Source: Dyadobacter sp. MSC1_007
GTDB taxonomy: Bacteria > Bacteroidota > Bacteroidia > Cytophagales > Spirosomataceae
Length of the DNA stretch: 64,000 nt
Assembly: GCF_023667495.1 (NCBI RefSeq)
Contig: NZ_JAMOZL010000007.1
Span: forward strand, 186,001 to 250,000
Direction of reading: 5' to 3'
A model generated the notes under the pieces. The model worked only from the letters and a program-made list of their open reading frames with translations. It ran no database searches and was not told the origin of the DNA. Below are positions 29,801 to 47,110 of the stretch, one piece after another. How positions within the stretch are numbered: position 1 is the first letter of the stretch; each line of letters begins with the position of its first letter. The position numbers and the translations under genes are program-made.

Positions 29801-29873
29801 GGTGATGTAGCTCAGTCGGTAGAGCAAAGGACTGAAAATCCTTGTGTCGGCGGTTCGATTCCGTCCATCACCA
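29801..29873 (+). tRNA. tRNA-Phe (GAA)
   Basis: A 73-nt cloverleaf. The acceptor arms GGTGATG and CATCACC pair perfectly and the D arm is GCTCAGTCGGTAGAGC. The anticodon stem AAGGA/TCCTT encloses CTGAAAA with anticodon GAA (29834-29836), and the T arm carries GGTTCGATTCC. CCA is not encoded. The T arm and acceptor 3' end belong to the attachment site, so the integrated element supplies or recreates the end of this gene. Confidence 0.97.
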
Positions 29874-29875
29874 CA
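29852..29875 (+). repeat. attL: 24-bp tRNA 3'-end direct repeat
   Basis: The sequence from GGTTCGATTCCGTCC to ACCACA (24 bp) is repeated exactly at 45569-45592. It covers the tRNA-Phe T arm and acceptor end, as usual for tyrosine-recombinase att sites. Flanking bases differ on both sides. Confidence 0.93.
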
Positions 29876-30610: not shown

Positions 30611-31588
30611 ATGACAAATTTAACAGCCCTGAATGGTTTCTCCAACCATTCGGAAGGAAAGATTTTACATAAATCTTCCTTAAACACAATGAAGGATCTC
30701 GCGGAGAAAGGGAAGACGCTCGCTCCGCTTAGACGTTTGCTCGGGAATTATGTGCTTGAAAACTCGGCAATAATCTTCGCAGCGGAGCGTGGTACCGGGA
30801 AAACGCTTTTAGGTCTCCAAGCCTGTATTGCTATTTCAGCGAAATGGCCGTCTCTGTGGAATGAACCAATCGAATATCACGGAAATACATTGTTCATCAA
30901 CTGCGAGCTCAGTGAAGATACAATCAGTCGAAGACTACGGCATCTCTTTGAAGCACCACCTAAGGAGATCGGGTCTTCGGAGTACCATAGCTATGTCTAC
31001 ACAACAAAGAAAAGCTTGGAGGAAGAATCCCAGGCGATCATTGAAATGTCGATGATTCAGAAACCTGTCTTGATCGTTTTGGACAATTTCAGGGTAGCCT
31101 TCCTGAACTCGGATACGAACAACGGTAAGGAAGTCGCGAAGGCAATGCATTTGATCCTGACGCTTCGTGATCTGCTGGACACAACGATCATCATCACTGA
31201 CCATACACGGAAGCATACCCGAAATTTGCTGACCGATAGTGACCTTCAAAGCGGCTCCGGGGTGAAGTCAGATTTGACGGATAGCGACATGTTTCTCCGG
31301 AGGAGTAAACAGGATATTCAGTATCGGATTTTCAAACGCTCCAAATCCAGGCATTGCGAAGAGACGGACGGTGCTAAGTTGATCCGTCTGAATCCTGAAT
31401 CGCTATGGTTTGAATTCGTCCAGGATGACATCGACGAAGCTCAGCACATAGGCACAGAGGTAATGCCGATGAAGGAGGAGCAGAAGGATTTAGCGCGAGA
31501 GCTTCGGGATCAGGGAAAGACCATCGAGCAGATAGCGAAGATACTGAATCGGGGCAAAGGCACCATTCATCGCTGGCTAAACGAGTAA
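30611..31588 (+). CDS. RecA-like ATPase (AAA_25/RepA helicase-like) with C-terminal HTH
   Basis: A 325-residue P-loop ATPase. Walker A is FAAERGTGKTLLGLQACIAI near residues 55-75, Walker B KPVLIVLDNFRVAFLN near residue 155, and a sensor-like TTIIITDHTRKHTRN follows, as in the hexameric RepA/DnaB-like AAA_25 group. The C-terminal 35 residues (ARELRDQGKTIEQIAKILNR, then GKGTIHRWLNE) form a resolvase-like helix-turn-helix. It is likely a replication helicase or initiator of the element, consistent with the adjacent primase and the repeat array just downstream. Assignment as helicase is inferred from the fold and context. Confidence 0.75.
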   Translation: MTNLTALNGFSNHSEGKILHKSSLNTMKDLAEKGKTLAPLRRLLGNYVLENSAIIFAAERGTGKTLLGLQACIAISAKWPSLWNEPIEYHGNTLFINCELSEDTISRRLRHLFEAPPKEIGSSEYHSYVYTTKKSLEEESQAIIEMSMIQKPVLIVLDNFRVAFLNSDTNNGKEVAKAMHLILTLRDLLDTTIIITDHTRKHTRNLLTDSDLQSGSGVKSDLTDSDMFLRRSKQDIQYRIFKRSKSRHCEETDGAKLIRLNPESLWFEFVQDDIDEAQHIGTEVMPMKEEQKDLARELRDQGKTIEQIAKILNRGKGTIHRWLNE

Positions 31589-31657: not shown

Positions 31658-31705
31658 GCTCGAAGAAAATGGCAACATCAGGAATTGAACTTGGAAGTCC
31701 GGGCT

Positions 31706-31957
31706 CGTTCCACTTGTTCCAAAAATTCCATTCGTTCCACACGTTCCATTTGTTCGGTTGGTTCCATTTTGGTCTGGGATGTTCCATCTCGTTCCACTTG
31801 TTCCAAAAATTCCATTTGTTCCAAAGTTCCGTTTCGTTCCATGCGTTCCATTAATTCCATTTTGGCTTAGATGTTCCATCTCGTTCCATTTGTTCCGCTT
31901 GTTCCATTCCGTTCCAGGCGTTCCACTTGTTCCGGAAATTCCATTTGTTCCACATTT
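31706..31957 (+). repeat. Nine-bp GTTCCA tandem repeat array
   Basis: About 25 units of the form GTTCCAnnn, spaced mostly nine bases apart, with a higher-order period near 84 bases (GTTCCACTTGTTCCAAAA recurs at 31707 and 31791, and TTTTGG...GATGTTCCATCTC recurs at about 31768 and 31853). Variants are ATTCCA and GTTCCG. Inverted copies (TGGAAC) follow at 31982-32070. Every reading frame across it gives only low-complexity peptides, so it is noncoding. Its position between the helicase-like and primase-like genes suggests an origin with iterons. Confidence 0.85.
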
Positions 31958-31981
31958 TTCACATCAAAATCTGACTAAAAA

Positions 31982-32070
31982 ATGGAACGTGCTAATTATC
32001 AGGTTGATAGCGATTTTTTTGAGCAAAATGGAACAAGTGGAACGCGTGGAAAATGGAACGGAACGGAACG
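31982..32070 (-). repeat. Inverted GTTCCA units before the primase gene
   Basis: The plus strand shows TGGAACAAGTGGAACGCGTG followed by GAAAATGGAACGGAACGGAACG, the reverse complement of the array units, so the two blocks face each other around about 31970. They can pair into a large imperfect hairpin. They fill the leader of the primase-like gene. Confidence 0.75.
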
Positions 32071-32095
32071 ACGGCGGGTGAAAAAAAGAAAAGTT

Positions 32096-33028
32096 ATGAA
32101 TGCAAAACAGATTAATCAAACGTACGAAATCGTGGCCTTTTTGGCTCGGCATGGCTTCCGGCCAACGTCTGTAAAAGGTGATAACTATTGGTATATCAGT
32201 ATGATACGCGGGCCTGAGAGCCGGGCGTCATTTAAAGTTGATTCCCGAAAAAATCTCTGGTATGATCATGCACTTGGTGTGGGAGGCAACGTGGTCGACC
32301 TGGCTTGCCGGTTGTTCCAAAATTCGGATGTCAAGGAAGTCATGAGGCTGATCACTGACGGTCTTTCTTCTTTTCACCCGCAACAAACCGAAGTGAGGCT
32401 GCAACCTGACGTGAGTTCTGGGCTGCGTATAATCTCGGAAGGTATCCTGGAAAATGACTACTTGCTGCGGTATCTACGCAGACGAGGTATATCAGAGGAG
32501 GTCGCAAGAAGCTATTGCTTTCAGGTCAGCTATGAGAACAACGGTCGCGAATACAACGCCATCGGTTTCAGGAATAGGGCTGGCGGCATCGAACTACGGA
32601 GCATGAATTTCAAATCATGCATTGCTCCGAAGGATGTTTCCTACATCGATAACTCCGGCAATAAGCTACTCGTTTTCGAAGGGTTTATGGATTTTTTCTC
32701 GTACTGGATGCTCCCCGTATTCCAAATATCCGATGCGAATTTCCTGATCCTGAATTCCACTTCGCAGTTAAAACGAGCCCACGAATTTCTTGCAGCACCT
32801 GGTCCGAAGTACCTGTTTCTCGATAACGATAAAGCCGGATTCGAAACAGCGGCTTATATGAAGCATAACAATCCGAATGTGATCGACTTGGCGGTAATGT
32901 ATGCTGGCTGCAAGGATTTGAATGATTTTCTCACTCAAAACCAACACCTCAATGACCAAAGACTTGCTGTTGCGCTTGTACGCGAGAAAGGACCGGAAGC
33001 GCCGGAAAATGCTCTTCGCGCTTTTTAG
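32096..33028 (+). CDS. Toprim-domain primase-like protein
   Basis: A 310-residue protein with a CHC2-like N-terminal region lacking the zinc ligands (YWYISMIRGPESRASFKVDS, then NLWYDHALGVGGNVVDLACR) and a Toprim domain: the catalytic Glu in LLVFEGFMDFFSYW and the acidic pair in YLFLDNDKAGFETAAYM. This is the primase-like layout seen in Bacteroidota integrative elements and should prime replication of the circular form. The ATG at 32096 is preferred because an upstream ATG at 31982 would translate the GTTCCA repeats into low-complexity NGT residues. The 3' end overlaps the next gene by 77 bases. Confidence 0.8.
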   Translation: MNAKQINQTYEIVAFLARHGFRPTSVKGDNYWYISMIRGPESRASFKVDSRKNLWYDHALGVGGNVVDLACRLFQNSDVKEVMRLITDGLSSFHPQQTEVRLQPDVSSGLRIISEGILENDYLLRYLRRRGISEEVARSYCFQVSYENNGREYNAIGFRNRAGGIELRSMNFKSCIAPKDVSYIDNSGNKLLVFEGFMDFFSYWMLPVFQISDANFLILNSTSQLKRAHEFLAAPGPKYLFLDNDKAGFETAAYMKHNNPNVIDLAVMYAGCKDLNDFLTQNQHLNDQRLAVALVREKGPEAPENALRAF

Positions 33029-34769: not shown

Positions 34770-35099
34770 ATGAAAGAGCATTTCGACAATGCGGCTGATC
34801 GGCCGTGTCAATCCAAAAAGACGAATAAAGACCGAACAATCCCGCTGCGTGTTACAGAGCATCAGTATGCGACAATCAAATCGAAAGCAATGCTTGCGGG
34901 GTATTCCGTGTCTGAATATTTACGGAGGCTGGGCATCGGCCATCCCGTCGAAGCCAGGTTCGACAAAGACGAGAAACGGAACTTAGTGGGTATCGGCAGA
35001 AACCTGAACCAGCTGGCCGCAAAAGCCAATAACGGCTTCTTCTATCACAAGCCGATTATGGAAGTTTTGGAGCAACTTAAGCGGATCCTGGTAAAATGA
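34770..35099 (+). CDS. mobC: MobC-like mobilisation protein
   Basis: A 109-residue relaxosome accessory protein. The ribbon-helix-helix-like core is IPLRVTEHQYATIKSKAMLA, GYSVSEYLRRLGI, and the MobC signature VGIGRNLNQLAAKANNGFF is near the C-terminus. MobC-type proteins bind oriT and help the relaxase open the strand. The ATG at 34770 gives MKEHFDNAADRPCQSKKTNK; the longer open frame starting at 34647 would read through the oriT inverted repeat. The stop overlaps the relaxase start by four bases. Confidence 0.88.
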   Translation: MKEHFDNAADRPCQSKKTNKDRTIPLRVTEHQYATIKSKAMLAGYSVSEYLRRLGIGHPVEARFDKDEKRNLVGIGRNLNQLAAKANNGFFYHKPIMEVLEQLKRILVK

Positions 35100-35887
35100 T
35101 AGCGAAAACGACGATAGGGGCGGACTTCCTGGGAGCGATCTGCTACGGCGCCGGCTTGCGAGTCAATGGGAAAGAGATAGAAGGGAAGTCGGAGCTGCTT
35201 TTGGCTCATAACCTGATTTCGGATGATCCGAAGGGCATGGCGCTGGAAATGCAGCGGGAGGCGGAGTTTAGTCGATGCAAGAAACCGGTTTGGCATACTT
35301 CACTTAGCTGGAAGCCGGGGGAAGATCCGAGTAAGGATCAGATGATTGAGGCTGCTAACCGGTATTGTGAAAAGATGGGTGCTAGTCCGGAGGATCATCA
35401 GATAGTAGTGTTTCAGCATCATGACCGGCCGCATAGGCATATTCACTTGTATGTTAACCGCTTGCCCATTGGTGGCGGCAAGGCTCTTGAGACTTCTCAC
35501 AACTATGCTCGAAATGTTAGGGTGTGTAAGGAAGTTTCTCGAGAGCTCGGATTTGCAATGATAGAAAAACTTCGGCCGGAGAAACTTCGATACGTTGCTC
35601 AGAATCGGGAAGAAGCTCAGAGGTTTGTGAACTTAGCTATAAAGGAGGCCTTGACCCAAAAATGTACGAGCGTTGAGAACTTAAGACTGTGGCTGAATGA
35701 GAAAGGGATTGGTTGTAAATTTACAATGAAAGAAGGTAGTTTAAAGTATTCCAGTTTCAGTTATAAAGGGGTGGCGATTAAGGGGCAGGATGTGGGATTT
35801 ACTGCTAAGATGTTACAGCGTCAAATCGATCATATTGTAGAAAGAGAGATTAAGAAAAAAGTTGCTATACAACAGAGCTGCTGTTAG
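35096..35887 (+). CDS. mobA: MobA-type relaxase
   Basis: A 263-residue relaxase of the PF03432 group, which cuts oriT, stays covalently bound to the 5' end and pilots the strand into the recipient. The His triad is clear in FQHHDRPHRHIHLYVNRL (about residues 106-123), and Tyr17 in GADFLGAICYGAG is the likely catalytic tyrosine. It is shorter than the best-studied members (about 300-450 residues) but ends naturally. Together with the upstream MobC and oriT it makes a minimal mobilisation unit that depends on a helper conjugation system. Confidence 0.88.
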   Translation: MIAKTTIGADFLGAICYGAGLRVNGKEIEGKSELLLAHNLISDDPKGMALEMQREAEFSRCKKPVWHTSLSWKPGEDPSKDQMIEAANRYCEKMGASPEDHQIVVFQHHDRPHRHIHLYVNRLPIGGGKALETSHNYARNVRVCKEVSRELGFAMIEKLRPEKLRYVAQNREEAQRFVNLAIKEALTQKCTSVENLRLWLNEKGIGCKFTMKEGSLKYSSFSYKGVAIKGQDVGFTAKMLQRQIDHIVEREIKKKVAIQQSCC

Positions 35888-36032
35888 CCGGGACAGAAAC
35901 GGACGTCCGTATCAAATACTAGATTCAAAACTTGAGCAGCCCCGTGAAGCATGGCTTTATGAACAAATGTACGTCGATCTTCAGCATCGTACTTTGGTGA
36001 GTCTAGGGGGCTGCTCATATCACAACACCAGG

Positions 36033-37244
36033 CTAAATACTGAGATTGAACTTAGCATTCAAAATTTCTAATTTTTGAATTCGGTCTATTCTAAATGTCC
36101 GTTCGGCATTTCTTAGATTGCAATGCCCGATTAGATATTCGACTATCTTTTCATCCTCACTTATTTTTACGACTTTGAAGCTGTCCAACGTTCGCGATGA
36201 AACGTTTTCGTTAATGTTGATATATTTGATTCTTATAAATGAGTTAGATTTTCGGGCTTCCTCGATCGCGGATATCATTTGCTCGTGTCGTATAGCAGGT
36301 GTAGATACCGTACCATCATCAAAATTAAAGTCTGGATATGATTCCGAAAAATAAGAATCTAAAGTAAGTCCAATTGGCTCATTGTCAATAAGTTGAATGT
36401 CTATGATCGAATTCAGAATGTAGTCGAATGCGCTCACATGAAAATATCCACTTCTATAAAAAATCGCCTTTGGAGCAATAACTCTGGTTACCTGCCCGTC
36501 ATTCAAGGATATATACTTGCCTTGCCCGATTAAATTACGAACGAACTTAATCGCATCAGGCTTGATTTCTGGGATAAGCTGTAGCGCATCTGCGGCAATA
36601 AACTTCTCATGAAATTTACTACTTTCAGAGTTAAACCATTTACATCTAACCACCCATTTTGGCACGAATCGTTTTTGTTCTCCCCTCCTTGAGTCATATA
36701 ATGGGTCTTTGTGGTCATAGCGCTTAATCTCAACTATCTGCATTACAGGGCTTAGGTATGTCAATAACCCTTCAACTCTTGTTCTGCCACTAGTCAGGTT
36801 ATTTTCATCCGACCTCATGTAACTTTTCCTTTTACCAAGTTCAAGATTTAAGGTGGTTAACGAAACTTGTTTAGATATAAACGCTTGATAGATTTCTGGT
36901 AAACTCCTAGCAACCGATCTTTCTATAAAGTCCTGAGAATCATTAGATTTTATTGTTTTGAGCAATTTGGAAGATAGCCAGACTTCTTCAAATTGATCCT
37001 TGGTGGAGAAAAACAAGCATTTGACGCTCAATTCATCTTGCTTCACCCCCGTGTGTTCGTCATATGTGGTCTTAAAGTTCTTCTGGGTTTCAACAACAAT
37101 CATAAATGGTGAGATATGCGTCGTATCGCCCCCAACTATGACATCCGACTCAGCATCAGGATACGGATGAGTTTTTAGGGACACTATTGAACCGATGGCT
37201 ATATGCGGAGTGCTCCCGGGTTGGGTGTTGGTAGGTTCTGACAT
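36033..37244 (-). CDS. WYL-domain protein, divergent from the RT gene
   Basis: A 403-residue protein of a type I cannot name. The C-terminus (about residues 326-396) reads as a WYL domain: AIEEARKSNSFIRIKYININ, then VVKISEDEKIVEYLIGHCNL and ERTFRIDRIQKLEIL, matching the usual RxxxIxY, the Y/W-x-L-like strand and the RTFRxDRI end. WYL domains are ligand-sensing modules common in regulators of defence systems. The N-terminal 320 residues show no HTH and no recognisable domain. It is transcribed away from the reverse transcriptase, with 463 bases between the starts, so it could regulate or modulate that system. Confidence 0.6.
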   Translation of the reverse strand: MSEPTNTQPGSTPHIAIGSIVSLKTHPYPDAESDVIVGGDTTHISPFMIVVETQKNFKTTYDEHTGVKQDELSVKCLFFSTKDQFEEVWLSSKLLKTIKSNDSQDFIERSVARSLPEIYQAFISKQVSLTTLNLELGKRKSYMRSDENNLTSGRTRVEGLLTYLSPVMQIVEIKRYDHKDPLYDSRRGEQKRFVPKWVVRCKWFNSESSKFHEKFIAADALQLIPEIKPDAIKFVRNLIGQGKYISLNDGQVTRVIAPKAIFYRSGYFHVSAFDYILNSIIDIQLIDNEPIGLTLDSYFSESYPDFNFDDGTVSTPAIRHEQMISAIEEARKSNSFIRIKYININENVSSRTLDSFKVVKISEDEKIVEYLIGHCNLRNAERTFRIDRIQKLEILNAKFNLSI

Positions 37245-37707
37245 TTTGCGATAGATGAGTTCTATCCCAAATATAAAGGACTAAAGCATATATTTGTAGC
37301 GGTCTTGCAAATCATGAAGAAGGCAACAACTAGTTTGGACTGTAAAGTGATTTGCTTATGATAGTGAAAAGCTACTGGCAATTGCCAAATAAGGTAGATT
37401 GTTCAGGTAACAGATTCCCATTACAACTACATCCTGGAGCAACGTTGAACAAACGAGCAAGGTGAACTACGAAAGTAGACAACACGACAATTGCTGATTG
37501 ATTCAACCCCGTTATCAGAGTAGATCCGGTAGGGAATATTGTAAATATAACAATAAATATCAAGGTTAAGAAATGTTTCATTGGTTTCGATGATTTATTT
37601 GTGTTTGACTTTGTTCTTGTTATAGAATTCAAAATTTGTGTGACTCAATAATTTGGGTAATAGTCTAACTCATTAAGAGCGTATGTTGTCGTAATTTCTG
37701 CTACACC
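37245..37707. ncRNA. Candidate noncoding RNA region before the RT gene
   Basis: A 463-base gap with no convincing gene between the WYL and RT genes. Anti-phage RTs of the UG2/DRT2 type need a structured RNA of a few hundred bases encoded immediately upstream, so this gap is the place for one. I see a perfect palindrome TGGCAATTGCCA at 37376-37387 and AT-rich sequence, but I could not derive a defined fold. A 70-residue open frame on the minus strand (37372-37584) overlaps it. Confidence 0.35.
37372..37584 (-). CDS. Possible small secreted or membrane peptide
   Basis: An open frame of 70 residues starting MKHFLTLIFIVIFTIFPTGS, hydrophobic at the N-terminus like a signal or membrane segment, then a Cys-containing tail (NVAPGCSCNGN). 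It lies on the same strand as the WYL gene, upstream of it. It may be a real small gene or a chance frame in a noncoding RNA region; nothing else supports it. Confidence 0.3.
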   Translation of the reverse strand, partial: PMKHFLTLIFIVIFTIFPTGSTLITGLNQSAIVVLSTFVVHLARLFNVAPGCSCNGNLLPEQSTLFGNCQ

Positions 37708-39303
37708 ATGATTGCAAGACCATATTTTACTAAGAAGCCTGTCGATATTCCTTGGCTTAAGAATAGGGGATATTTACATATTACGCCACAATTAGATATA
37801 ATCTCCGACAGGCATAAGATCATTGGGAAAGTGACTAATAAGACATTCATATCTTCTTATGCATTTTTTCCATTAATACATTCAGTAATCAAGGAGAGGC
37901 GCTTTAAAAAAATACCTGAGATTTCTCGAAGAGCCCATTCATATCGAACTTTGGATGGCATTATTAAACGAAATGATAAAGTAAGGCCTTTACATTATGC
38001 TTCACATTTTGATTCTTTAATATACGGCTACTACGCCGATATTTTACAGCAACTTTATGAAAAAGTATTGGAAGAAGATGAGGAGCTTTCAAGATGTATT
38101 ATCGCATATAGAAAGATAAGATCAGAGCAACAAAATGGTAACAAAAGCACAATACATTTTGCTGGCGAAGTCTTCAATACTATTAGAGAACGTGCCATTG
38201 ATTCGTGTGTTGTTTTAATGTTTGATATAAAGAGCTATTTTAGTTCAATTGATCATGATTTGTTAAAGAAGTCCTGGACTGAACTTGTCTGTGAAACTAG
38301 GCTGCCGCCAGATCATTATAATGTTTTTAAAGCTACAACTCAATTTTCCTATATATTGTTGGACGATTTGAGATTGAAGGGGTCGATTAATGGCCGAAGG
38401 AGGGGCTTTGACGAACGAAGGCTTAGCCAGATTAGAAACCAAAATGGAATTTTCTCGTTTTTTGATTCAGCCAAAGAATTTAGACATAAAATTAAATCAA
38501 AAGAATTACGTATTCATAGGTTTCCTTTTAGAAATAAGCATAATGTACCTATTGGTATTCCTCAAGGTTTGCCTATCAGCGCCACACTAGCTAACCTTTA
38601 TCTCTTAGACTTTGATAAAAAAATCAAGCAAAAAGTCGTTGCTGAGTCAGCTGGTTTTTATCGAAGATACTCCGATGATATTATAGTGATTTGTAAGCCA
38701 GGTCAAGTTGCAGAGATTGAGAAATTTGTTATGGATGCAATTAATGAGCGTAAAGTTCAGATCAGTGTTGAAAAGACGGATAGGTACATGTTTCGTTATA
38801 TGCCGAATAATGATGGATCGAGACATGTGGTATCGATCAAAATGGAAGAAACAAAGTCTTCTTTTAACTATCCATTAAGTTATTTGGGATTTGAATTTTA
38901 TGGAGATAAAATTTTAGTCAAGTCCGCAAACCTGTCTCGCTTTTATCGCAGAATGATTTTTTCGGTTAAAAGAAAAGTAAGACGGGCTCGATCTAAAATG
39001 GAAAATGATCCTAATATGCCCTTCATCTTATATCGTAGTCAGTTAAAGAGGTTATATTCAAATGTCTCTTTGAAGAAAACGAAAATACATCGTCATAAAA
39101 AATTTTTGACTAAAACGGAGCTTGGTAGCCATAAAATTAAAGTCAAAAAATCAGATAAAAGTTTGAGAAGTAATTATATCGCCTACATTAAGAAGGCAAG
39201 TCATCTATTGAATGAGCCAAGGTTAATCAAACAGGTAAGTGGACATCAGAGGGTGTTAAATCAAGCTATTCAAAAACAGAGTAGGATAGAGAATCGAAAT
39301 TAG
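37708..39303 (+). CDS. Abi/UG-type (DRT2-like) defence reverse transcriptase
   Basis: A 531-residue reverse transcriptase. Motif A is VLMFDIKSYFSSIDHDLL (172-182 core), motif B GIPQGLPISATLANLYLLD (about 283-301), motif C the catalytic YRRYSDDIIVI with YSDD at 321-324, motif D around ISVEKTDRYMF and motif E LSYLGFEFYG. The N-terminal KVRPLHYASHFDSLIYGYYA block and the basic C-terminus are typical of the bacterial UG/Abi RT class used against phages. It has no maturase domain (not a group II intron) and no retron VTG motif. DRT2 is my best match, from memory and unverified. The upstream gap of more than 400 bases suits a templating RNA. Confidence 0.75.
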   Translation: MIARPYFTKKPVDIPWLKNRGYLHITPQLDIISDRHKIIGKVTNKTFISSYAFFPLIHSVIKERRFKKIPEISRRAHSYRTLDGIIKRNDKVRPLHYASHFDSLIYGYYADILQQLYEKVLEEDEELSRCIIAYRKIRSEQQNGNKSTIHFAGEVFNTIRERAIDSCVVLMFDIKSYFSSIDHDLLKKSWTELVCETRLPPDHYNVFKATTQFSYILLDDLRLKGSINGRRRGFDERRLSQIRNQNGIFSFFDSAKEFRHKIKSKELRIHRFPFRNKHNVPIGIPQGLPISATLANLYLLDFDKKIKQKVVAESAGFYRRYSDDIIVICKPGQVAEIEKFVMDAINERKVQISVEKTDRYMFRYMPNNDGSRHVVSIKMEETKSSFNYPLSYLGFEFYGDKILVKSANLSRFYRRMIFSVKRKVRRARSKMENDPNMPFILYRSQLKRLYSNVSLKKTKIHRHKKFLTKTELGSHKIKVKKSDKSLRSNYIAYIKKASHLLNEPRLIKQVSGHQRVLNQAIQKQSRIENRN

Positions 39304-39630
39304 ACCAAAGTTGACTATTCGTACATTGGCTGCCTGCCACATAGGAAAGTCGAGAATCACGACAGTGTTTTATTCCTGGATGCCCACAAAAGACGTATGG
39401 GTGGAATTGAGCCCTGAAATGACGCGTTTCTATTTACATCAATCACCAGTTCTTCACGTTTTTCATTTCCTCGATATACTCGCTAATACAAAAAAGTTTA
39501 CTTAGGAAGTTCCTGGTTTTTTGCATCTCCATATTTTAAATGTTAACATAGCAGTATATCTGAGAATTGCAATAGACAGGGGGCAAAAAGTAACATCCTG
39601 TCATCAAGCCACTATCCTGGACTAATTAGC
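39304..39630. other. Gap between RT and nuclease operon
   Basis: About 327 bases without a convincing gene. A 64-residue open frame (39311-39505) has a hydrophobic, aromatic tail but no support. A promoter for the nuclease operon should lie here. Confidence 0.4.
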
Positions 39631-41004
39631 ATGACAATTATTCGACCAAGGCTTAACGATTATCATTCCGTGGCTATTACCCAAGAAGCCGTCGACTTTG
39701 CTATACCGTTCTTAGACGAGGATATCCCCCTATACGTAGATCCGTTCTTGCTGTGGAAGTCACCATCGATGCAGGACAATTCTTTGCACCTGTTGATTAC
39801 TAATAGCTTCAACAATCTCGGGTATTTAATGTCTCGTGGAAGGGAAGCCGAAGCGATTGAGATTTTAATTAGGGCTTCTGAATGCACAGAAGTTGGATTA
39901 GGAAATTCAAAAAACAAGGAGGGTAGGCGAATTGGAGAAAAGCTGGCGAGACAGATACTCAACCTATTTTCTAGTATTCCTGAAATACAGAAAAGTGGGT
40001 TTCTTCATTTTGAAGAAGCGCAATTACTAGTGGATAGCTTTTCAAAAGATAGAGTGAGTGATATTGCGTGTAACTTTATACAATCTTTTTTGGTTGACTT
40101 TACCATAGAGCAATGCGAGAAGTTTGGAATTCCGATTGAATCGGTAAAGTTGAGTAATGTTTATGATCTCAAGAAAAATAAATTTTGTGATGAACAAACG
40201 CACCTGCCAGTAAATCCCGTGACAAAAGAGCCGATTTTGCTTGTGCCCAAGAGGTGGTTGAGACATATACCTTGGATTAGTACTGACGACTATTTTGATA
40301 ACTATTATAAAAAAAATGTATACGACGAGAAAGATTTGTTTCCAGATCGTATAAAGCTTCTGAACTTTAATCGTCAGAACTATGATATAGTCAAGGCTTA
40401 TACTGCAATTAAGGAAAAGCAAATTGAGAACTGTAAAAACGATCCGTTGTTTTCTCAAATTCCCGTCACATCAGCGAAGCGGAAGATATCAACAATAACT
40501 AATATTCCAACGGGAAAAATTGACAATGCTGACAAGAAATATGAAGACAACGTGTGTCAATTATTTGTCTCTTTAGTGTATCCACATCTCGATTTTGCGA
40601 AAGAACAAAGCAGAACAGAGTCTGGTTTCCATATACGAGATTTGATATTTTATAATAATAAGTCGTTTGATTTTTTGGGCGAGATATATGATGATTACCA
40701 ATGTCGACAGATTGTTGTTGAGCTTAAAAATGTTATGACTTTGGAGCAGGAGCACGTTCTTCAGCTAAACCGCTACCTTAAGAGTCAATTTGGTAATTTT
40801 GGCATTATTGTCACTCGTAACCCTCCGCCTAGGAAGGTGTTTAAGAATACAATTGACCTTTGGTCTTCGCAAAGAAAATGCATTTTAATACTGGACGACT
40901 CTGATTTGAAGTTTATGACACAGATATTTGAAAGTAAACAACGTAACCCCATAGAGGTCGTCAAAAAAAAATACATAGAATTTACCAGGGCATGTCCATC
41001 CTAA
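39631..41004 (+). CDS. PD-(D/E)XK-like nuclease, first gene of an unrecognised operon
   Basis: A 457-residue protein I do not recognise as a named system component. The C-terminal 160 residues look like a restriction-endonuclease fold: a helix with a possible first Glu (KKYEDNVCQLFVSLVYPHL, Glu305), then HIRDLIFYNNKSFDFLGEIY (Asp337), QIVVELKNV (Glu364-x-Lys366) and QEHVLQLNRYLKSQFG with the Gln often seen after the ELK strand. The N-terminal half is helical with a distinctive IPLYVDPFLLWKSPSM motif and could be a sensor or binding part. It overlaps the next gene by 13 bases; the three genes 39631-41779 form one operon. Confidence 0.6.
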   Translation: MTIIRPRLNDYHSVAITQEAVDFAIPFLDEDIPLYVDPFLLWKSPSMQDNSLHLLITNSFNNLGYLMSRGREAEAIEILIRASECTEVGLGNSKNKEGRRIGEKLARQILNLFSSIPEIQKSGFLHFEEAQLLVDSFSKDRVSDIACNFIQSFLVDFTIEQCEKFGIPIESVKLSNVYDLKKNKFCDEQTHLPVNPVTKEPILLVPKRWLRHIPWISTDDYFDNYYKKNVYDEKDLFPDRIKLLNFNRQNYDIVKAYTAIKEKQIENCKNDPLFSQIPVTSAKRKISTITNIPTGKIDNADKKYEDNVCQLFVSLVYPHLDFAKEQSRTESGFHIRDLIFYNNKSFDFLGEIYDDYQCRQIVVELKNVMTLEQEHVLQLNRYLKSQFGNFGIIVTRNPPPRKVFKNTIDLWSSQRKCILILDDSDLKFMTQIFESKQRNPIEVVKKKYIEFTRACPS

Positions 41005-41411
41005 CTCAAATTTGTATGAAGCCAAAAGACATAGACAGTTTCAAAAAGATTCTTAATCAGCTTGAAGGTTTGCATGAAGAAATATCTACGCTTTCTAAAA
41101 AGTCTTACACTGATTCGCTCAATAGCTTTAAGCTTAATTTGGTAAACCAGGTTTTGTCAAGAGCAAATGAGATTCTCGGTGAGAATTATTTACCATTTAC
41201 TGACTTTACTATATTTGAAGATGCGAACATTCCCAATAATAGTGATGTGACGCTTGTTTTATCCCAGTATATTAATTGTATGGAGAGTTTGCGGGAAGAA
41301 AATATTGTATCGAAGATTGAATATACCACGAGTGGAAGTATTGCTAAAATCTATTGGAGCTGGAAAGGGACCAATTTAGAAACATATCCGCCAAAAAATG
41401 TTAGAAAATGA
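40992..41411 (+). CDS. Small helical protein, paralog A of the nuclease operon
   Basis: A 139-residue mostly helical protein with no known family. Its core LSKKSYTDSLNSFKLNLVNQ, then VLSRANEIL and IPNNSDVTLVLSQYINCMES, aligns with the next gene product. Its C-terminal tail has aromatic residues (IYWSWKGTNLETYPP). The ATG at 40992 overlaps the nuclease gene; ATG 41016 (MKPKDIDSF) is an alternative with an 11-base gap. Position and coupling suggest it works with the nuclease, as partner, inhibitor or sensor, but there is no direct evidence. Confidence 0.6.
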   Translation: MSILTQICMKPKDIDSFKKILNQLEGLHEEISTLSKKSYTDSLNSFKLNLVNQVLSRANEILGENYLPFTDFTIFEDANIPNNSDVTLVLSQYINCMESLREENIVSKIEYTTSGSIAKIYWSWKGTNLETYPPKNVRK

Positions 41412-41779
41412 GAGATTTAACTGAAGGTTTGCCGACAAATAAGGAGATAGTGAAATTTCAAATGCTAGATGAATTAGCAGAGTCAGTTTATGTTGAGGTC
41501 AAGGAGCTGTCGAAGAAGAAGCCCGATGACGCATTGAATAAATTCAAAGTAAAAAACGTAAATAGAATTCTTGTCGAATTGAAGGAATTTTTGAAAAAGG
41601 AGCCCACTGTGGATTTCTTGGATTTGCTAGATGAAGAGGCACTTCCAACGAATAGCGATGCAATACTTGTCATAGGGCAATTCAAGGCTTCAATGGATAA
41701 TTTCCGAAAGAAGTATAGAAACATGTATGGTAAATGGAGAACCGTGGAAAATCCGTCCGCTAAGGGCGGTATGGATTAG
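41408..41779 (+). CDS. Small helical protein, paralog B of the nuclease operon
   Basis: A 123-residue protein paralogous to the preceding one: LSKKKPDDALNKFKVKNVNR and LPTNSDAILVIGQFKASMDN match LSKKSYTDSLNSFKLNLVNQ and IPNNSDVTLVLSQYINCMES. Its start overlaps the preceding stop by four bases (ATGA). It is acidic in the middle (VDFLDLLDEEALP) and basic at the C-terminus. Two unequal copies of a small protein after a nuclease suggest a hetero-oligomer or an antitoxin pair. The function is unknown. Confidence 0.6.
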   Translation: MRDLTEGLPTNKEIVKFQMLDELAESVYVEVKELSKKKPDDALNKFKVKNVNRILVELKEFLKKEPTVDFLDLLDEEALPTNSDAILVIGQFKASMDNFRKKYRNMYGKWRTVENPSAKGGMD

Positions 41780-41889
41780 GTGCTTGGGTAACTCAGTGCC
41801 CTCTCGCAGAATGAAACTAGTAATTGTATAGGATTCCTTGAATCTTTAACAGGATTTACATAATTGATAATCTTGGGAAGCGGATCGGG

Positions 41890-42861
41890 TTATTGCGATC
41901 TATTTAATATGCTTATTATTAGGTTCTTCACTGTTTCCATTTCCTCGGGCTTACTAGCCGCTGCAAACAAAGTGAGACTAGCAAGAGCCTCATTACTTAA
42001 AATTGGATCTCCTGATTTTGATTTCAACAGGCTATTGCTTTCAAGAAATAGCAGGAAGCATGCAGCGGCGATACGTTTATTCCCGTCCACAAAGCCATGA
42101 TTCTTGATAACCAGATATAATAAAGTAGCTGCCTTCTCTTCTATCGAAGGATAAAAGTCAACATCCCCAAAGCCTTTACCAATTTGTACCAGTGCGCTCT
42201 GGAAGCTTCCGTCCTTCTCCTTCCCAAAAACATCGGAATCGAAATCTGCCTTCATGGTTTCAACCACGCGATAATATTCTGTTATCTCCGGATATACTGC
42301 CTTTTTCGTGCTTAACCCCTTTTCGTCCAGTTGTTCATGGTCGTAATCGTCTAGCAACTCCAATCCCTTTGCAAATTGTCCGAGCCACGCAAGATCCGTT
42401 TCGTTGACTTTATCCTCAATTGCCCTGCTTAATATTCGAATCCCATCTTTAAGCGTTTGAACTTCCTGCTGTTTCTGGGCAAGGCGTTGCTCATTGATCA
42501 CATAACCTTGAACCAGATAATGCCTCAGGCGCTGCGTGGCCCAGATGCGAAATTTTGTTCCTTGGGACGACTTTACTCTATATCCGACGGAAATGATCAC
42601 GTCGAGGTTATAGAAGCTGATCTTCCTGCTGACTTTCCGATTCCCTTCGGTTTGAACTGTCAAGTATTCCTTGACAGTTGCCTCCTTCTCCAATTCTCCC
42701 TCTTTGTAAATGTTGGCGATGTGGAGACTGATGTTTTGCTTGGTCTGCCCAAAAAGGTCGGTAAGTTGCTGCTGGCTAAGCCAAACCGTGTCTTCCTCAA
42801 ATGTTACCTCTAACTGAGTCTGGCCATCACTGGCTTGATATATTTCGACTTTACTCTCCAT
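41890..42861 (-). CDS. RhuM-like / Fic-Doc fusion protein
   Basis: A 323-residue two-domain protein. The N-terminal part (LEVTFEEDTVWLSQQQLTDL, then FGQTKQNISLHIANI and GTKFRIWATQRLRHYLVQGY) matches the RhuM family, which has a DNA-binding-like helix. The C-terminal 150 residues are a Fic/Doc domain with the catalytic loop NHGFVDGNKRIAAA. Doc proteins phosphorylate or AMPylate targets such as EF-Tu and are toxins in phage-plasmid addiction. The ATG at 42861 is chosen, as the longer frame from 42936 overlaps the upstream gene and lacks family sequence. No separate antitoxin is obvious. Confidence 0.8.
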   Translation of the reverse strand: MESKVEIYQASDGQTQLEVTFEEDTVWLSQQQLTDLFGQTKQNISLHIANIYKEGELEKEATVKEYLTVQTEGNRKVSRKISFYNLDVIISVGYRVKSSQGTKFRIWATQRLRHYLVQGYVINEQRLAQKQQEVQTLKDGIRILSRAIEDKVNETDLAWLGQFAKGLELLDDYDHEQLDEKGLSTKKAVYPEITEYYRVVETMKADFDSDVFGKEKDGSFQSALVQIGKGFGDVDFYPSIEEKAATLLYLVIKNHGFVDGNKRIAAACFLLFLESNSLLKSKSGDPILSNEALASLTLFAAASKPEEMETVKNLIISILNRSQ

Positions 42862-42923
42862 GATCAATAATTGGTATTTGGGTCTGACCAGAGGCCAATT
42901 TCTACTTCGCCTAACTCCCGATG

Positions 42924-43349
42924 CTAGTCTGAACACATACTCGTCAATTTCTTAAATTCATCAAACTCTGCTTGGGAAATTGGGTAGTTCTTCAACTTGT
43001 ATATGATATGTTTCTTATCCCAGTTGAAGTAATATTTGTCATTTTCTCCCTCCAACGTGATCGACGCTCTGAAACTCACATCATCTAGATGCGACTGGTT
43101 TCGCCTAGTTACTGTGTTAAGCAGATCTACAACTTTTTTGACATCTGCTGGATTGGTAATTTCTAGAAGACTCGTTTTGATGGTAAACAAGTCATTTGGA
43201 GCTGCTATTGCCTCAAAGTTATTTTCATTGATAGACACGATCGTGTGCGTGCGAAAGGGAAAACATACCATTTTAACCACTTGGGGGTATTTGGGATTGT
43301 TACAGCCGCAAACGGCCAAGATAAAGAGTATCACCAGGGACTTTGACAT
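42924..43349 (-). CDS. Small putative lipoprotein
   Basis: A 141-residue protein with a short hydrophobic leader ending at Cys (MSKSLVILFILAVCGCNN), likely a lipoprotein. The mature part resembles a small beta-rich domain (FRASITLEGENDKYYFNWDK, then KHIIYKLKNYPISQAEFDEF) without a family I know. It lies in the minus-strand cargo run between the integrase-linked gene and the RhuM-Fic gene. An exposed lipoprotein on a mobile element might act in surface exclusion or phage blocking, but that is a guess. Confidence 0.55.
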   Translation of the reverse strand: MSKSLVILFILAVCGCNNPKYPQVVKMVCFPFRTHTIVSINENNFEAIAAPNDLFTIKTSLLEITNPADVKKVVDLLNTVTRRNQSHLDDVSFRASITLEGENDKYYFNWDKKHIIYKLKNYPISQAEFDEFKKLTSMCSD

Positions 43350-43418
43350 TCTTAAGTATCTATTTCAAAAATCATTTATGTGAATCTGCCCATCACGCAT
43401 CCGATGTTTTTGCTGACT

Positions 43419-44129
43419 TCATTTACTTGGAGACAATTTGCTCGTCGACCCGTAGAAAAATGCCCTTAATTCCTCCTGCAACTGTTCCGGAATATTTGTT
43501 GCCGTCCGTATCTCCGACGCCTCTTTCTGTAATGATGATAAGGCGGAATTTTTGAAGCTCTCAAACTGGTGAAGAGCGATGGCAGTCCCCAGGCTGGTGG
43601 CTTTCATTGCATATTCCGAGCCATTCGGATCCTTAATGTCATTGAAAAGGAAGGAAAATAAACGCAAGATTTTGTCCCTGTCCTTACCCTTTATCTCGGC
43701 TCTAGCCCCGACATAGACAGGCTCCATTTTATAGGACTCGTAATTATCAATGACCCATTCCAGGCATGTATCAAGTCGGATCTTGTCTTCCTTGCCGGAC
43801 ACCAGCTGAATCCTCGCAGGAAGGGAGAACTTGAAGTAGCGCAGAAAGCGTTCCTTTTCGTCGAAGTGGTGATAATGATATTCTAGACACTCAATGGCCT
43901 CTTCAACCGAGCTGAAGTAGCAGAGCAGATTAATGATGTCGTTTTGATATCTTCTTCTAGTAGGTCGTTCAGCAAAATGCAAATGATACGGATGCGTCGC
44001 TTCTCCGATTTCGTACCGAAAATATGGAGTGAATTCGAGGCTATCCTGATGCTTTAATCCAAAGTGCTTCTTGAACCTTTCAAATTCGGAATATCCAGAT
44101 TGATAGTCAGTTTGTTCTGCCATAATCAC
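43419..44129 (-). CDS. Unknown protein coupled to the integrase
   Basis: A 236-residue protein that I do not recognise. It is soluble, rich in aromatic residues and charge, with FRYEIGEATHPYHLHFAERP and HYHHFDEKERFLRYFKFSLP as notable His-rich stretches and a C-terminal helical region (SLGTAIALHQFESFKNSALS). Its start codon overlaps the integrase stop by four bases, so it is translated with the integrase. That coupling suggests a role in integration or excision control, or a way to keep cargo expression linked to integration. The start MIMAEQ is used; ATG at residue 3 is possible. Confidence 0.6.
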   Translation of the reverse strand: MIMAEQTDYQSGYSEFERFKKHFGLKHQDSLEFTPYFRYEIGEATHPYHLHFAERPTRRRYQNDIINLLCYFSSVEEAIECLEYHYHHFDEKERFLRYFKFSLPARIQLVSGKEDKIRLDTCLEWVIDNYESYKMEPVYVGARAEIKGKDRDKILRLFSFLFNDIKDPNGSEYAMKATSLGTAIALHQFESFKNSALSSLQKEASEIRTATNIPEQLQEELRAFFYGSTSKLSPSK

Positions 44130-45394
44130 TCATCTTTAAAGCGCTCCTTCCAAATCTCTGAAAGCTGCCGCGCGTACTGTTTTTTGGTTACCTTGATGTA
44201 TGTTAAAAATGCTTTTTCGGTCCGGTGGCCGGTGATTGCCATAATGGCGTAGGAGGGAGTGCCGGCAAGATACTCATTGGTTGCAAATGATCGCCTGGCG
44301 GTGTGGGAGGTAATTAACGAAAACTTACTTACCTTTTTCTGCGTCCGGACTTTTCCTTTCTTCTCGAATAAAGCTACGTCATCGCTCAGATTGGCCTTTT
44401 CGGCGATCTCTTTGAGATACTCGTTCATCTTCTGATTGGATATTACCGGTGGCAAGTGGTTTGGAGTCTTACCCTTGTATTTCTCCATGACCTTCCTGAC
44501 GATCGGGTGGATCGGGATTTCTAAGTATTCGTCTGTCTTGATCGTTTTGGTCTTTAAATATTTGAAGTCCGGCGATATGTTCTCGGCTTGTATGGCCGTG
44601 AGATCGGAGAAGCGTAGGCCCGTGAAACAGCCAACAATAAAGAGATCCCGCACCTTTTCGAGCCTGGGTTCAGCTGACAAGTCAAGTTTCATCAGGAGCT
44701 TGATTTCATCTTCATTCAGGTAGATCGAATCGACTTCCTTGCGGGGTGTCGAAAACCGCCGACTCTTGAACTCGATGTTGTCATTCTCCTTCCGCTCTGT
44801 TGCTTCGTTTAGGAAGAATTTTAAAAGCCCGGTGTGCTTATTTTGTGTGTTCTCATTGTACTTCTTAACCTCGACCATAAATCTTTTGAAATCATGATAG
44901 AAGTCCAGCGTGATGTCATTAAAAGCAATGCTTTTCTTCTTGGCATCAATCTGATATTCCATTAGCATCTTCAAGTGTGAGCGGTAAGTTTTGACCGTGT
45001 TAGCGTTTTTGAATCCTTCCACCGACTTGATGTATTTGTCAATGAAATCGGTCAGGCCAGGCTTGCCTTTCTGAGGAGCTGCTTCATATTTATCCGTCCT
45101 GATCTCTCGCTCAAACAGCGGTTTCAAATCGGCTGGAGTGATCGGCAGCTTTTGATAAAGCCGTTGTTGGTATATCTTCTGAACTTCATTTCGCCACCGG
45201 TCCAGATTGGCATTGAGCTCTAAATAGGCCTCGTGGCTTGCCTTCGCCCTTTGGTTTTTTGCGTCCCAAGATTTGGGCTTTATAAACTGATTTGTAGAGA
45301 CAACCACCTGCTCAGTTCCATAGCGGAAATATAATGAGATCAGGCAATTGCCATTTGGTTTTGGCTTTTTGAGATAGTATTTTGTAGTAGCCAT
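44126..45394 (-). CDS. int: Tyrosine recombinase integrase
   Basis: A 422-residue site-specific recombinase of the Bacteroidota element type. It has an N-terminal arm-binding part (CLISLYFRYGTEQVVVSTNQ), a SAM-like core-binding domain (FIDKYIKSVEGFKNANTVKT, YRSHLKMLMEYQ) and the catalytic domain with the first Arg in FTGLRFSDL, His-x-x-Arg in TSHTARRSFATNEY, and the late GHRTEKAFLTYIKV carrying the nucleophile Tyr. All catalytic residues are present, so the element may still be active. It lies at the right end, 175 bases inside attR, and is transcribed inward. Confidence 0.92.
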   Translation of the reverse strand: MATTKYYLKKPKPNGNCLISLYFRYGTEQVVVSTNQFIKPKSWDAKNQRAKASHEAYLELNANLDRWRNEVQKIYQQRLYQKLPITPADLKPLFEREIRTDKYEAAPQKGKPGLTDFIDKYIKSVEGFKNANTVKTYRSHLKMLMEYQIDAKKKSIAFNDITLDFYHDFKRFMVEVKKYNENTQNKHTGLLKFFLNEATERKENDNIEFKSRRFSTPRKEVDSIYLNEDEIKLLMKLDLSAEPRLEKVRDLFIVGCFTGLRFSDLTAIQAENISPDFKYLKTKTIKTDEYLEIPIHPIVRKVMEKYKGKTPNHLPPVISNQKMNEYLKEIAEKANLSDDVALFEKKGKVRTQKKVSKFSLITSHTARRSFATNEYLAGTPSYAIMAITGHRTEKAFLTYIKVTKKQYARQLSEIWKERFKDE

Positions 45395-45568
45395 TAAGCC
45401 GACAACTTAGTTTACACAAATCTATCTTAACTAAGCTGGTTTACAAAATGGTTTACGATAAAAATCCTTTGCGAGGTTGTATATTGTCTAACCCAATTTT
45501 ATATATTTGCCATTAGTAGCTCTGAATCAGAATATTTTAACGAAAAGCTCATGAAAGTATCATTCGAA

Positions 45569-45592
45569 GGTTCGATTCCGTCCATCACCACA
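45569..45592 (+). repeat. attR: 24-bp tRNA 3'-end direct repeat
   Basis: An exact copy of 29852-29875 (T arm and acceptor end of tRNA-Phe). The 5' half of the tRNA is absent here, so this is the displaced end of the original gene. Confidence 0.93.
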
Positions 45593-45596
45593 ACCA

Positions 45597-45630
45597 AAAG
45601 CCGTTACGAGCAATCGTAGCGGCTTTTTTG
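45597..45630 (+). terminator. Chromosomal terminator formerly of tRNA-Phe
   Basis: AAAGCCGTTACGA and TCGTAGCGGCTTT pair with one G-U and a four-base loop, followed by TTTT. Lying five bases after attR, it is the likely original terminator of tRNA-Phe before integration. Confidence 0.85.
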
Positions 45631-45715
45631 TTGAACTGAGTGAATTTTTCGGTAGGAGCTGTCTTCAAATGATGCCAATTCTTTCTCTCGCATTAAGAGT
45701 TAACTAACAAATCTC

Positions 45716-45792
45716 TTAGTTCAGAAAATGCATAGAAAACTGAACTAGAAAATCCGTTAGTTCAGTTTTAGGGCGAAAAGCTGAACTAACGG
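45716..45792. repeat. TTAGTTCAG repeat cluster downstream of fic
   Basis: TTAGTTCAG at 45716 and 45757 and inverted CTGAACTA at 45740 and 45781. The last pair forms perfect arms CCGTTAGTTCAG / CTGAACTAACGG. It may be a terminator-like or operator cluster; a degenerate fifth copy (CTGTACTAA) is near 45822. Confidence 0.65.
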
Positions 45793-45861
45793 AATTTATA
45801 ATTTAGTTTTTCGACCAAAATCTGTACTAAAAGGTTTTTTGCTTTGATGATGTCCTTTAAT

Positions 45862-46992
45862 CTAGCTGCGCGTCGTTTTAATGATGGCAGCGCTCCCCTG
45901 ACCACGTTTTAAACTCCCCACATTTATGAGTAGGGAAATCAGATCGTCATTGAAATAATAGTTTTCCTTGCCTAACTTTTTCTTGTGAAGTAGATCGATT
46001 TCACAAAGTGAGTCCAAGTACCGGGCGGCTGTTTTTCTTGCTACATTCAAATCCTTTTTCACGAACTCGATTTTGGTATAAGGATGCCGAAACAAACTAT
46101 TAATCAAATCCTGACTATATACCTTTGGCAACTCTGTCCTGATCTTCTGTTTGTGGCTGGTCATCAGAACCTTAATGTCTCTTATCATATCCGATGTTTG
46201 CAAGGCTGTTTGCTCGACGGCATCCAGAATATACAAAATCCAGGGTTCCCATTGTTCCGTCTGACGGGTTTGCTGCAACAAGTTATAATAGGCAGCTTTA
46301 TTTTGATTAATAAACCGACTCAGGTACAGGATTGGTAATTTGAGCAGGCCCTCTTTAACAAGGTATAAAATATTTACAATCCGGCCGGTCCGTCCATTAC
46401 CGTCGTAAAAAGGGTGAATGCTTTCAAATTGATGATGGATGATTGCCATCTTTATCACCGGATCGATGTCTGAAAGACTGTTTTCGTTTATAAAATGCTC
46501 CAAATTTCCCATGAGCGAGACGATGTCTACGTGATTTTGAGGAGGCATGTAGACAACTTCGCCTGTTTGTTCATTTTTCAGTACCGTTCCGGGTACTTTT
46601 CTGAAACCGGCGTCATTTTCTTCGAGTAGTGCTTGCAGAGCAATAATATTGTTGCTGGTGAGCAGGCCTGTTTGCTTTACCTGTTGATATCCTTCGAGTA
46701 ATGCATGTGCATAGTTGTATACTTCTTTGGCGGCTAGGCTCACAAATTGATGTGCCTGACTGTCACTACTATACAACTCATCGTGCGTTGTTACGATGTT
46801 TTCTATTGCCGAACTATCCTTAGCTTCCTGCAGTGCAAGCGTGTTGATGATAATGCGTTCATTAGGAATGCTTTCTGCAATACCATTCAAACCGGCCAAA
46901 GCCGCACGTGCAGTACTTAGCTTTTTAAGTACTGCCTTGGTTTCTATTTCACTGGAAAGAGGCAGTTGTGGTAGTCGTATCTCGCCGCTCAT
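45862..46992 (-). CDS. Fic-family AMPylase with inhibitory helix and C-terminal wHTH
   Basis: A 376-residue class II Fic protein. The catalytic loop is HPFYDGNGRTGR at residues 193-204, and the inhibitory motif S/T-x-x-x-E-N is SSAIEN at 60-65, which blocks ATP binding until released. The N-terminal half (IETKAVLKKLSTARAALAGL) and the C-terminal winged helix (KDLNVARKTAARYLDSLCEI) are typical. Such proteins AMPylate targets, for example gyrase or chaperones, or regulate their own gene through the wHTH. The promoter carries 41-bp repeats with palindromes (see 46999-47110). It lies just right of attR, so it belongs to the host chromosome, not to the element. Confidence 0.88.
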   Translation of the reverse strand: MSGEIRLPQLPLSSEIETKAVLKKLSTARAALAGLNGIAESIPNERIIINTLALQEAKDSSAIENIVTTHDELYSSDSQAHQFVSLAAKEVYNYAHALLEGYQQVKQTGLLTSNNIIALQALLEENDAGFRKVPGTVLKNEQTGEVVYMPPQNHVDIVSLMGNLEHFINENSLSDIDPVIKMAIIHHQFESIHPFYDGNGRTGRIVNILYLVKEGLLKLPILYLSRFINQNKAAYYNLLQQTRQTEQWEPWILYILDAVEQTALQTSDMIRDIKVLMTSHKQKIRTELPKVYSQDLINSLFRHPYTKIEFVKKDLNVARKTAARYLDSLCEIDLLHKKKLGKENYYFNDDLISLLINVGSLKRGQGSAAIIKTTRS

Positions 46993-46998
46993 ACTTCA

Positions 46999-47110
46999 TG
47001 GGTCATTTTTTCAAATTTAGGGCTATTTCCCAACTAACGTGGGTCATTTTTTCGATTTTTGACTCACGTCTTACTTAACGTGGGTCATTTTTTCGATTTT
47101 TGACCCACGT
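46999..47110. promoter_or_regulatory. Fic promoter repeats with palindromes
   Basis: TGGGTCATTTTTTC recurs three times at 41-bp spacing (46999, 47040, 47081). Two copies continue as palindromes ACGTGGGTCA / TGACCCACGT (47078-47110, perfect) and ACGTGGGTCA / TGACTCACGT (47038-47069, one mismatch). They start seven bases before the fic ATG, so repressor binding would block translation or transcription of fic. Confidence 0.65.

Follow-up and report, generated by a model that had tools for sequence, protein, structure and literature searches.

Predicted PD-(D/E)XK nuclease and two paralogous small proteins in PDC-M36, a candidate defence cassette on a mobile island of Dyadobacter

The locus and its closest described relatives

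Shedu is a single-gene system whose protein SduA is a DUF4263 nuclease with a variable N-terminus, and among restriction enzymes BspD6I consists of a nicking large subunit and a separate small subunit. The phage defence candidates (PDC) were found by 'guilt-by-embedding', and most are without experimental validation (PMC11514479, PMC12988326, PMC11811056, PMC10855318). The locus treated here consists of three adjacent genes on one strand, A, B1 and B2, in a stretch of 64,000 nucleotides from Dyadobacter sp. MSC1_007 (contig NZ_JAMOZL010000007.1, positions 186,001 to 250,000), hereafter called the window, in whose numbering the coordinates are given. The trio is a catalogued candidate, PDC-M36, to which the present analysis adds a FokI/BspD6I-type fold, two old lines of B proteins, a modular N-terminal domain and the lack of a further regular partner. 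From sequences and models we favour, with moderate confidence, the reading that the trio is a self-contained defence nuclease cassette controlled by the B1-B2 pair.

Gene A (39631-41004, + strand) is an open reading frame of 457 amino acids and is present as a single copy in the 7.45 Mb genome. Against PADLOC-DB 2.0.0 it matched the PDC-M36A profile over residues 1-457 of 457, with 798 bits and E 4.9e-241. The best profile for B1 (longest open frame 40992-41411, +, 139 amino acids) was PDLC04599 (E 1.9e-45) and that for B2 (41408-41779, +, 123 amino acids) was PDLC04600 (E 2e-42), both named PDC-M36B; the three frames lie where a preliminary description of this DNA had placed them. The likeness to PDC-M36 extends to all three window proteins, in A over the full length, and the PDC-M36B genes adjoin the PDC-M36A gene, as would be expected of PDC-M36. 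The layout had been taken to be unrecognised in the preliminary description, but PADLOC-DB 2.0.0 already lists it as a candidate. That the set might be described under a known name thus holds for the catalogue entry, while no published description or test of the trio was found by the name PDC-M36 or by its features in open-licence PMC papers, in which word searches by feature are weak. M36A and M36B are used in other senses in the papers listed.

The C-terminal part of A (residues 272-457, 40444-41004, +) is predicted to be a PD-(D/E)XK nuclease domain, an assignment supported by the agreement between invariant active-site residues in the sequence and fold matches of the model. Residues E305, D337, E364, K366, Q378 and Y382 are invariant in all 25 aligned A proteins (the window and 24 relatives); they include the Asp337, Glu364, Lys366 and possible Glu305 from which a nuclease-like C-terminus had been proposed. 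Pfam PDDEXK_3 (PF13366) matched residues 356-395 marginally, at 22.4 bits with a cut-off of 22. The model of A had a predicted local distance difference test score (pLDDT) of 76.9, with about 60 at residues 321-340 around D337, and a predicted template modelling score (pTM) of 0.50. In residues ~272-457 it came nearest to BspD6I (5liq_A, Z 11.5, 199 residues aligned, root mean square deviation (rmsd) 5.5), the R.BspD6I small subunit (2p14, Z 11.3, 154 aligned, rmsd 3.5) and FokI (2fok_A, Z 10.5, 152 aligned, rmsd 3.4), the named matches of the model being BspD6I, R.BspD6I2, FokI and MspJI. Foldseek ranked RPB5 subunits of RNA polymerases first for A (best E 2e-4), with BspD6I and FokI next at E ~0.007-0.008. 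In the viral fold library RPB5-type subunits and restriction endonucleases ranked highest, none of them reaching E 0.001. The same part of A matches phrog_31260 and phrog_28056 in PHROGs, where no function is assigned.

A thus resembles the BspD6I nickase, the R.BspD6I small subunit and FokI in the fold of residues ~272-457 and in the catalytic D...E-x-K pattern. It differs from BspD6I and FokI in that identity is ~10%, no recognition domain was recognised and there is no regular methyltransferase partner, with two small helical partners instead. Membership in a restriction-modification system, type II included, was rejected: no methyltransferase was found among the 16 island genes (Pfam) and none is regular across the 31 loci described below. 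As in Shedu, a single effector combines a C-terminal PD-(D/E)XK nuclease with an N-terminal part that varies, but there are three genes here and one in Shedu, and for A Pfam reported no DUF4263 up to E 1 and PADLOC no Shedu profile.

Conservation of A, B1 and B2

At least one B gene was found in all 31 loci with A (numbered with the prefix L). Two Bs were called in 28 of them by the open reading frame (ORF) caller used, to which L019 adds an overlapping second B; in L052 the contig ends within the A gene. L031, where A is accompanied by two Bs, brings the total to 32, so that B stands beside A in all 32 loci with an A ortholog, and the trio is conserved beyond the element in the window, a point on which the preliminary description had made its proposal depend. 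A plasmid of Falsihalocynthiibacter holds a broken piece of A and no B. Short conserved peptides of the window's A served to find the 24 genome loci. Among 390 genomes from the same phylum as the window, with at most 10 first-look candidates scored per genome, a credible B was present in two, the same two that hold full-length A, and a third match was restricted to a 32-residue stretch (E 8e-4). Partial or distant matches to A occurred in 16 other genomes of the 395 searched for it. The PDC-M36A profile also matched one of 14 named control genomes, Synechococcus elongatus, and phage records gave no match for A or for B2.

The trio is found in Bacteroidota, Thermodesulfobacteriota, Bacillota, Pseudomonadota and Fibrobacterota and on a cyanobacterial plasmid, the Thermodesulfobacteriota and Fibrobacterota cases being metagenome contigs of 6.6 and 7.4 kb, which can be misassigned. 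The single Verrucomicrobiota locus, L019, contains B1 types only. Its carriers include plasmids, IMG/VR contigs and the tRNA island of the window.

Identities and distances were calculated for 27 of the 31 loci, excluding L012, L014 and L019 (one B in that ORF set) and L052 (A cut). The A-B1 and A-B2 distances are correlated (Mantel r 0.71 and 0.805), as is the third pairing (0.663), and none of 1000 permutations was as high for any of the three. Because their distances correlate across the 27 loci, A, B1 and B2 are taken to move as a unit. The ratio of nonsynonymous to synonymous substitution (dN/dS) was 0.04-0.23 in four of six pairs where computable, two of these four being unsure with dS partly above 1, which suggests purifying selection on the trio, in part with uncertainty.

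The preliminary description had reported overlaps of 13 bases between A and B1 and of 4 bases between B1 and B2, as the longest open frames have them, and had derived co-translation from both. The 4-base overlap (ATGA) is upheld. The 13-base overlap is probably an artefact of choosing the longest open frame, because the B1 relatives mostly start after the A stop and Met9 of the window's B1 is aligned with their usual start. With longest open frames, B1 starts 7 to 19 bases past the A stop in 18 of the 27 loci, at -13 in five including the window and at -29 in four. Met9 is the ATG at 41016, 11 bases past the A stop, and the likely B1 gene, with the start taken from relatives, is therefore 41016-41411 (+). 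Translational coupling across A-B1 is still likely from the close spacing.

B1 and B2 are, by sequence, paralogs from one old duplication, as had been proposed. They are 32% identical in the window and 24-38% identical within a locus across the 27 loci, and profile as well as sequence searches match them to each other. In an unrooted tree, 59 B proteins of the 31 loci fall into a first-gene line and a second-gene line with 100/100 support, and since the two lines are split in this way the duplication would predate the spread through the phyla. One PADLOC name, M36B, covers both lines. B1 precedes B2 in all 28 loci with one of each. Conflicts of label in the tree are limited to L012 and L014, each with a single B2-type gene, and L019 has two B1-type genes and no B2, the second being hidden by overlap in the ORF set of the tree. 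The window's B1 is the strongest outlier: its identity to other B1 proteins is 40-50%, against 74-78% between the A proteins of the window and six of those loci, and it has the largest residual in the regression of B1 against A. It is divergent as if fast-evolving or derived from another lineage.

The model of B2 is a helical bundle (pLDDT 92.0, pTM 0.83). Its structural matches were Bpa, designed bundles and phosphotransfer domains, with Csm small subunits lower. The match to the Bpa-like proteasome activator (Z 8.2, 98 aligned, rmsd 3.2) is in the range typical of helical bundles and has no sequence match beside it, and because the scores are at the level of helical bundles in general these folds are uninformative on function. 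In an alignment of 46 B proteins, from which the B2 copies of L017 and L022 and the loci added later were left out, the columns E30, K47, N52, P80, S83, D84 and Q91 are invariant. HEPN-type RNases have the motif R-x4-6-H. This motif is not conserved among the B proteins, whose alignment has no conserved histidine, and the B proteins do not fit a HEPN-type RNase on this point.

Residues 1-216 of A (39631-40278, +) form a modular N-terminal domain, recognised in an alignment of 13 proteins and with a boundary of our own choosing. Mean conservation is 0.727 in residues 1-216 versus 0.749 in residues 296-457, with 47 and 45 invariant positions. Over the 13 proteins, two of which are A orthologs, D31, D37, P38, E84, G91, G98, D140, S143, D144, T158, L204 and P206 are invariant. 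The domain stands by itself in plasmid-encoded proteins of Acinetobacter, Bacillus and Corynebacterium, opens a longer Calothrix protein and, in five proteins of 489-506 residues from the window's phylum, precedes a different C-terminus with another D...E-x-K pattern. By its motif we read this other C-terminus as a putative nuclease; Pfam gave no match in it, and no Pfam family reached the cut-off on the N-terminal domain of A or its relatives. The fold search with the whole A model, in which the nuclease domain filled the top rows, gave no convincing match for the N-terminal half, and searching by sequence for homologues of solved structure yielded nothing useful for A, for the Bs or for the broader N-terminal family. 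In PHROGs the N-terminal part matches phrog_27295 and phrog_30194, without assigned function.

The nuclease domain also occurs without the N-terminal domain of A, in a Rhodococcus protein behind an Mrr_cat domain. The protein at L040 (1-1968), 655 residues long, combines a QueC-like domain with a C-terminal stretch that matches the A nuclease domain. The relatives at L032/L079 and L033/L080 are like A in having the N-terminal domain together with a matching nuclease domain, but they are 21% and 23% identical to it and have no B gene within the 10.0 and 7.8 kb examined. In L081 the second gene after one for a protein resembling the L014 methyltransferase encodes a distant N-terminal relative.

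The mobile island and gene neighbourhoods

The trio lies inside a mobile element, as the preliminary description had stated. A 29-base repeat is found at both ends, the first copy (29847-29875, +) being the 3' end of tRNA-Phe and the second (45564-45592, +) being alike with it in 27 of 29 bases. The interior encodes a tyrosine integrase (44126-45394, -, Pfam scan), an AAA_25 protein which we read as RepA-like, a Toprim protein, a NikA/MobC protein and a relaxase. By its sequence the island is an integrative mobilizable element. L013, L051 and the window's island have backbone genes in common, with integrase and Toprim in all three, AAA_25 in the window and L013, and NikA/MobC and relaxase in the window and L051. 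Because of this common backbone, related mobilizable elements appear to carry the trio in different hosts. Between the AAA_25 gene (30611-31588) and the Toprim gene (31982-33028), at 31684-31961, a TTCCATTTG-like repeat occurs about 11 times, often at spacings of 9 or 18 bases, and this array looks like the iterons of the island's replication origin.

A Drt2-like reverse transcriptase (37708-39303, +, 531 amino acids) is separate, neighbouring cargo, with 419 bits for PADLOC Drt2 and 323 bits for NCBIfam Drt2, under the cut-off of 390. A link of the trio to this gene is not supported, as no relative of it was found near the trio in the other 30 loci (clusters of at least two loci, BLAST E 1e-6; several contigs are short). 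The Drt2-like gene is adjoined by a divergent WYL-YodC gene (36033-37244, -), a type that PADLOC links to reverse transcriptases, and the 463-base gap between the two may hold a non-coding RNA; an Rfam search of 35000-47000 gave no match at the gathering score. Further cargo of the island is a RhuM-Fic fusion (41890-42936, -, PADLOC PDC-S23), and a SoFic-type Fic protein lies just beyond the island (45862-46992, -).

Beside the B genes, no gene family recurs in more than three of the 31 loci by the same clustering. A methyltransferase-like family recurs in three (L009, L010 and L014), no mobilization, replication or integrase family exceeds three, and the surroundings vary by locus. The neighbours are rich in defence genes against a rough control, with 147 near neighbours matching 174 PADLOC families at E 1e-20 and 136 control genes matching 20. 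The 147 were taken from 245 neighbours of at least 120 amino acids within 6 kb, as the nearest 148 minus one of 2,973 amino acids and with the window's neighbours excluded, and the control comprised 136 of 137 genes (one long gene excluded) from 17 regions of same-phylum genomes. Among the 25 neighbour families listed are type I methyltransferase and restriction subunits, ThsA and other candidates, and Pfam domains in the neighbours include TIR, STALD and Eco57I. Four of 10 hand-picked large neighbours matched defence models within ~0.8 kb of the trio: a type I methyltransferase (L014), a type I restriction subunit (L009), a ThsB-like TIR protein (L008) and a cytosine methyltransferase (L051). 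The recurrence next to defence genes that had been expected is seen in some loci, beside restriction, TIR and methyltransferase genes. On two plasmids, L054 (4136-5846) and L055 (4694-5959), UmuD/UmuC or UmuC-type (DUF4113) polymerase genes immediately precede the trio. A link to UmuC/UmuD was rejected because it was seen on these two plasmids only.

Proposed function and its meaning

A defence effector with self-control in its partners is suggested by the intact active site, the constant small partners, the location on mobile DNA, the spread through phyla, some restriction neighbours and the lack of a regular methyltransferase, and the grouping of these profiles as a defence candidate in PADLOC lends the reading further support. 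The cassette would be carried by mobile elements and shuttled between phyla. We infer that the substrate of A is DNA, which would be cut by the C-terminal FokI/BspD6I-type PD-(D/E)XK domain, while the N-terminal domain would bind a target or a signal. B1 and B2, as small helical-bundle proteins, would bind each other in a fixed pair docked on A, and the direction of their control may be either to keep A silent or to aim it, until an invading phage or a rival element is sensed. As no methyltransferase regularly accompanies the trio, protection of host DNA would have to come from control by the Bs and not from DNA methylation.

Several observations weigh against this reading. The trio is rare, with full-length A in two of 395 genomes of the phylum, and the sample leans to close relatives because the scan used short peptides of the window's A. 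A strict B1-B2 pair is not absolute, since only B2 types are present in L012 and L014 and only B1 types in L019, and L022 has a short B2 frame. For six of the 10 hand-picked large neighbours PADLOC gave no match at E 1e-10. The control regions also gave some PDC matches and some of their 20 families look like housekeeping genes; the contrast between neighbours and control is rough because the controls come from one phylum and the PADLOC models overlap, dozens of them sometimes matching a single gene. No defence was seen in one group's host with two other PDC candidates, PDC-M63AB and PDC-S04 (PMC12409345).

A more specific version of the mechanism is put forward tentatively. B1 and B2 may be a two-part switch on a FokI-type nuclease, and the N-terminal domain of A, with D31, D37, E84, a glycine-rich stretch and D140-x2-S-D144, may be an undescribed sensing or catalytic domain common to several nuclease families, some of them inside restriction operons.

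The trio could also be a multi-subunit restriction-like nuclease, which we consider unlikely. Cutting would then require the Bs as subunits that bind DNA or recognise the target, and A would act on modified or marked foreign DNA in a type IV-like manner, so that no methyltransferase would be needed. The highest Z scores, for BspD6I with its two separate subunits and for FokI, are consistent with this, as are the absence of any methyltransferase family from more than three of the 31 loci, the type I restriction genes near some A loci and one distant relative, and the fusion of one relative of the C-terminal domain behind Mrr_cat. However, no recognisable DNA-recognition domain was found in A or the Bs, and B2 models as a plain helical bundle with generic matches.

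That the trio is an addiction cassette of toxin-antitoxin type which retains the island, with A as toxic nuclease and the Bs as antitoxins, appears quite improbable. In its favour, small genes are tightly coupled to a nuclease gene on mobile DNA, at least one B is present in all 32 loci with an A ortholog, and the sole ortholog copy seen without B is the plasmid-borne fragment of A. Against it, two conserved separate antitoxin lines for each toxin would be unusual, an effector-first gene order is less common and the distant relatives with the N-terminal and nuclease layout have no B. Least probable is a function for the mobile element itself, as a DNA-processing or exclusion factor in transfer, replication or element competition and not directed at phages: the trio does occur on plasmids, viral-collection contigs and the integrative mobilizable island, with UmuC-like polymerase genes adjoining it on two plasmids, but its surroundings vary, mobilization, replication and integrase families stay within three of the 31 loci and some loci are beside restriction genes.

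If the trio is a defence nuclease cassette controlled by the B1-B2 pair, a catalogue candidate gains a defined anatomy of residues, partners and domains. Since the N-terminal domain recurs with other C-termini, what it does would account for a wider group of unnamed proteins. With its two B lines still distinct in several phyla, the trio offers a clear example of a duplicated pair that has been maintained as one unit. The same reading, if true, would show how a restriction-like enzyme can spare host DNA without a methyltransferase.

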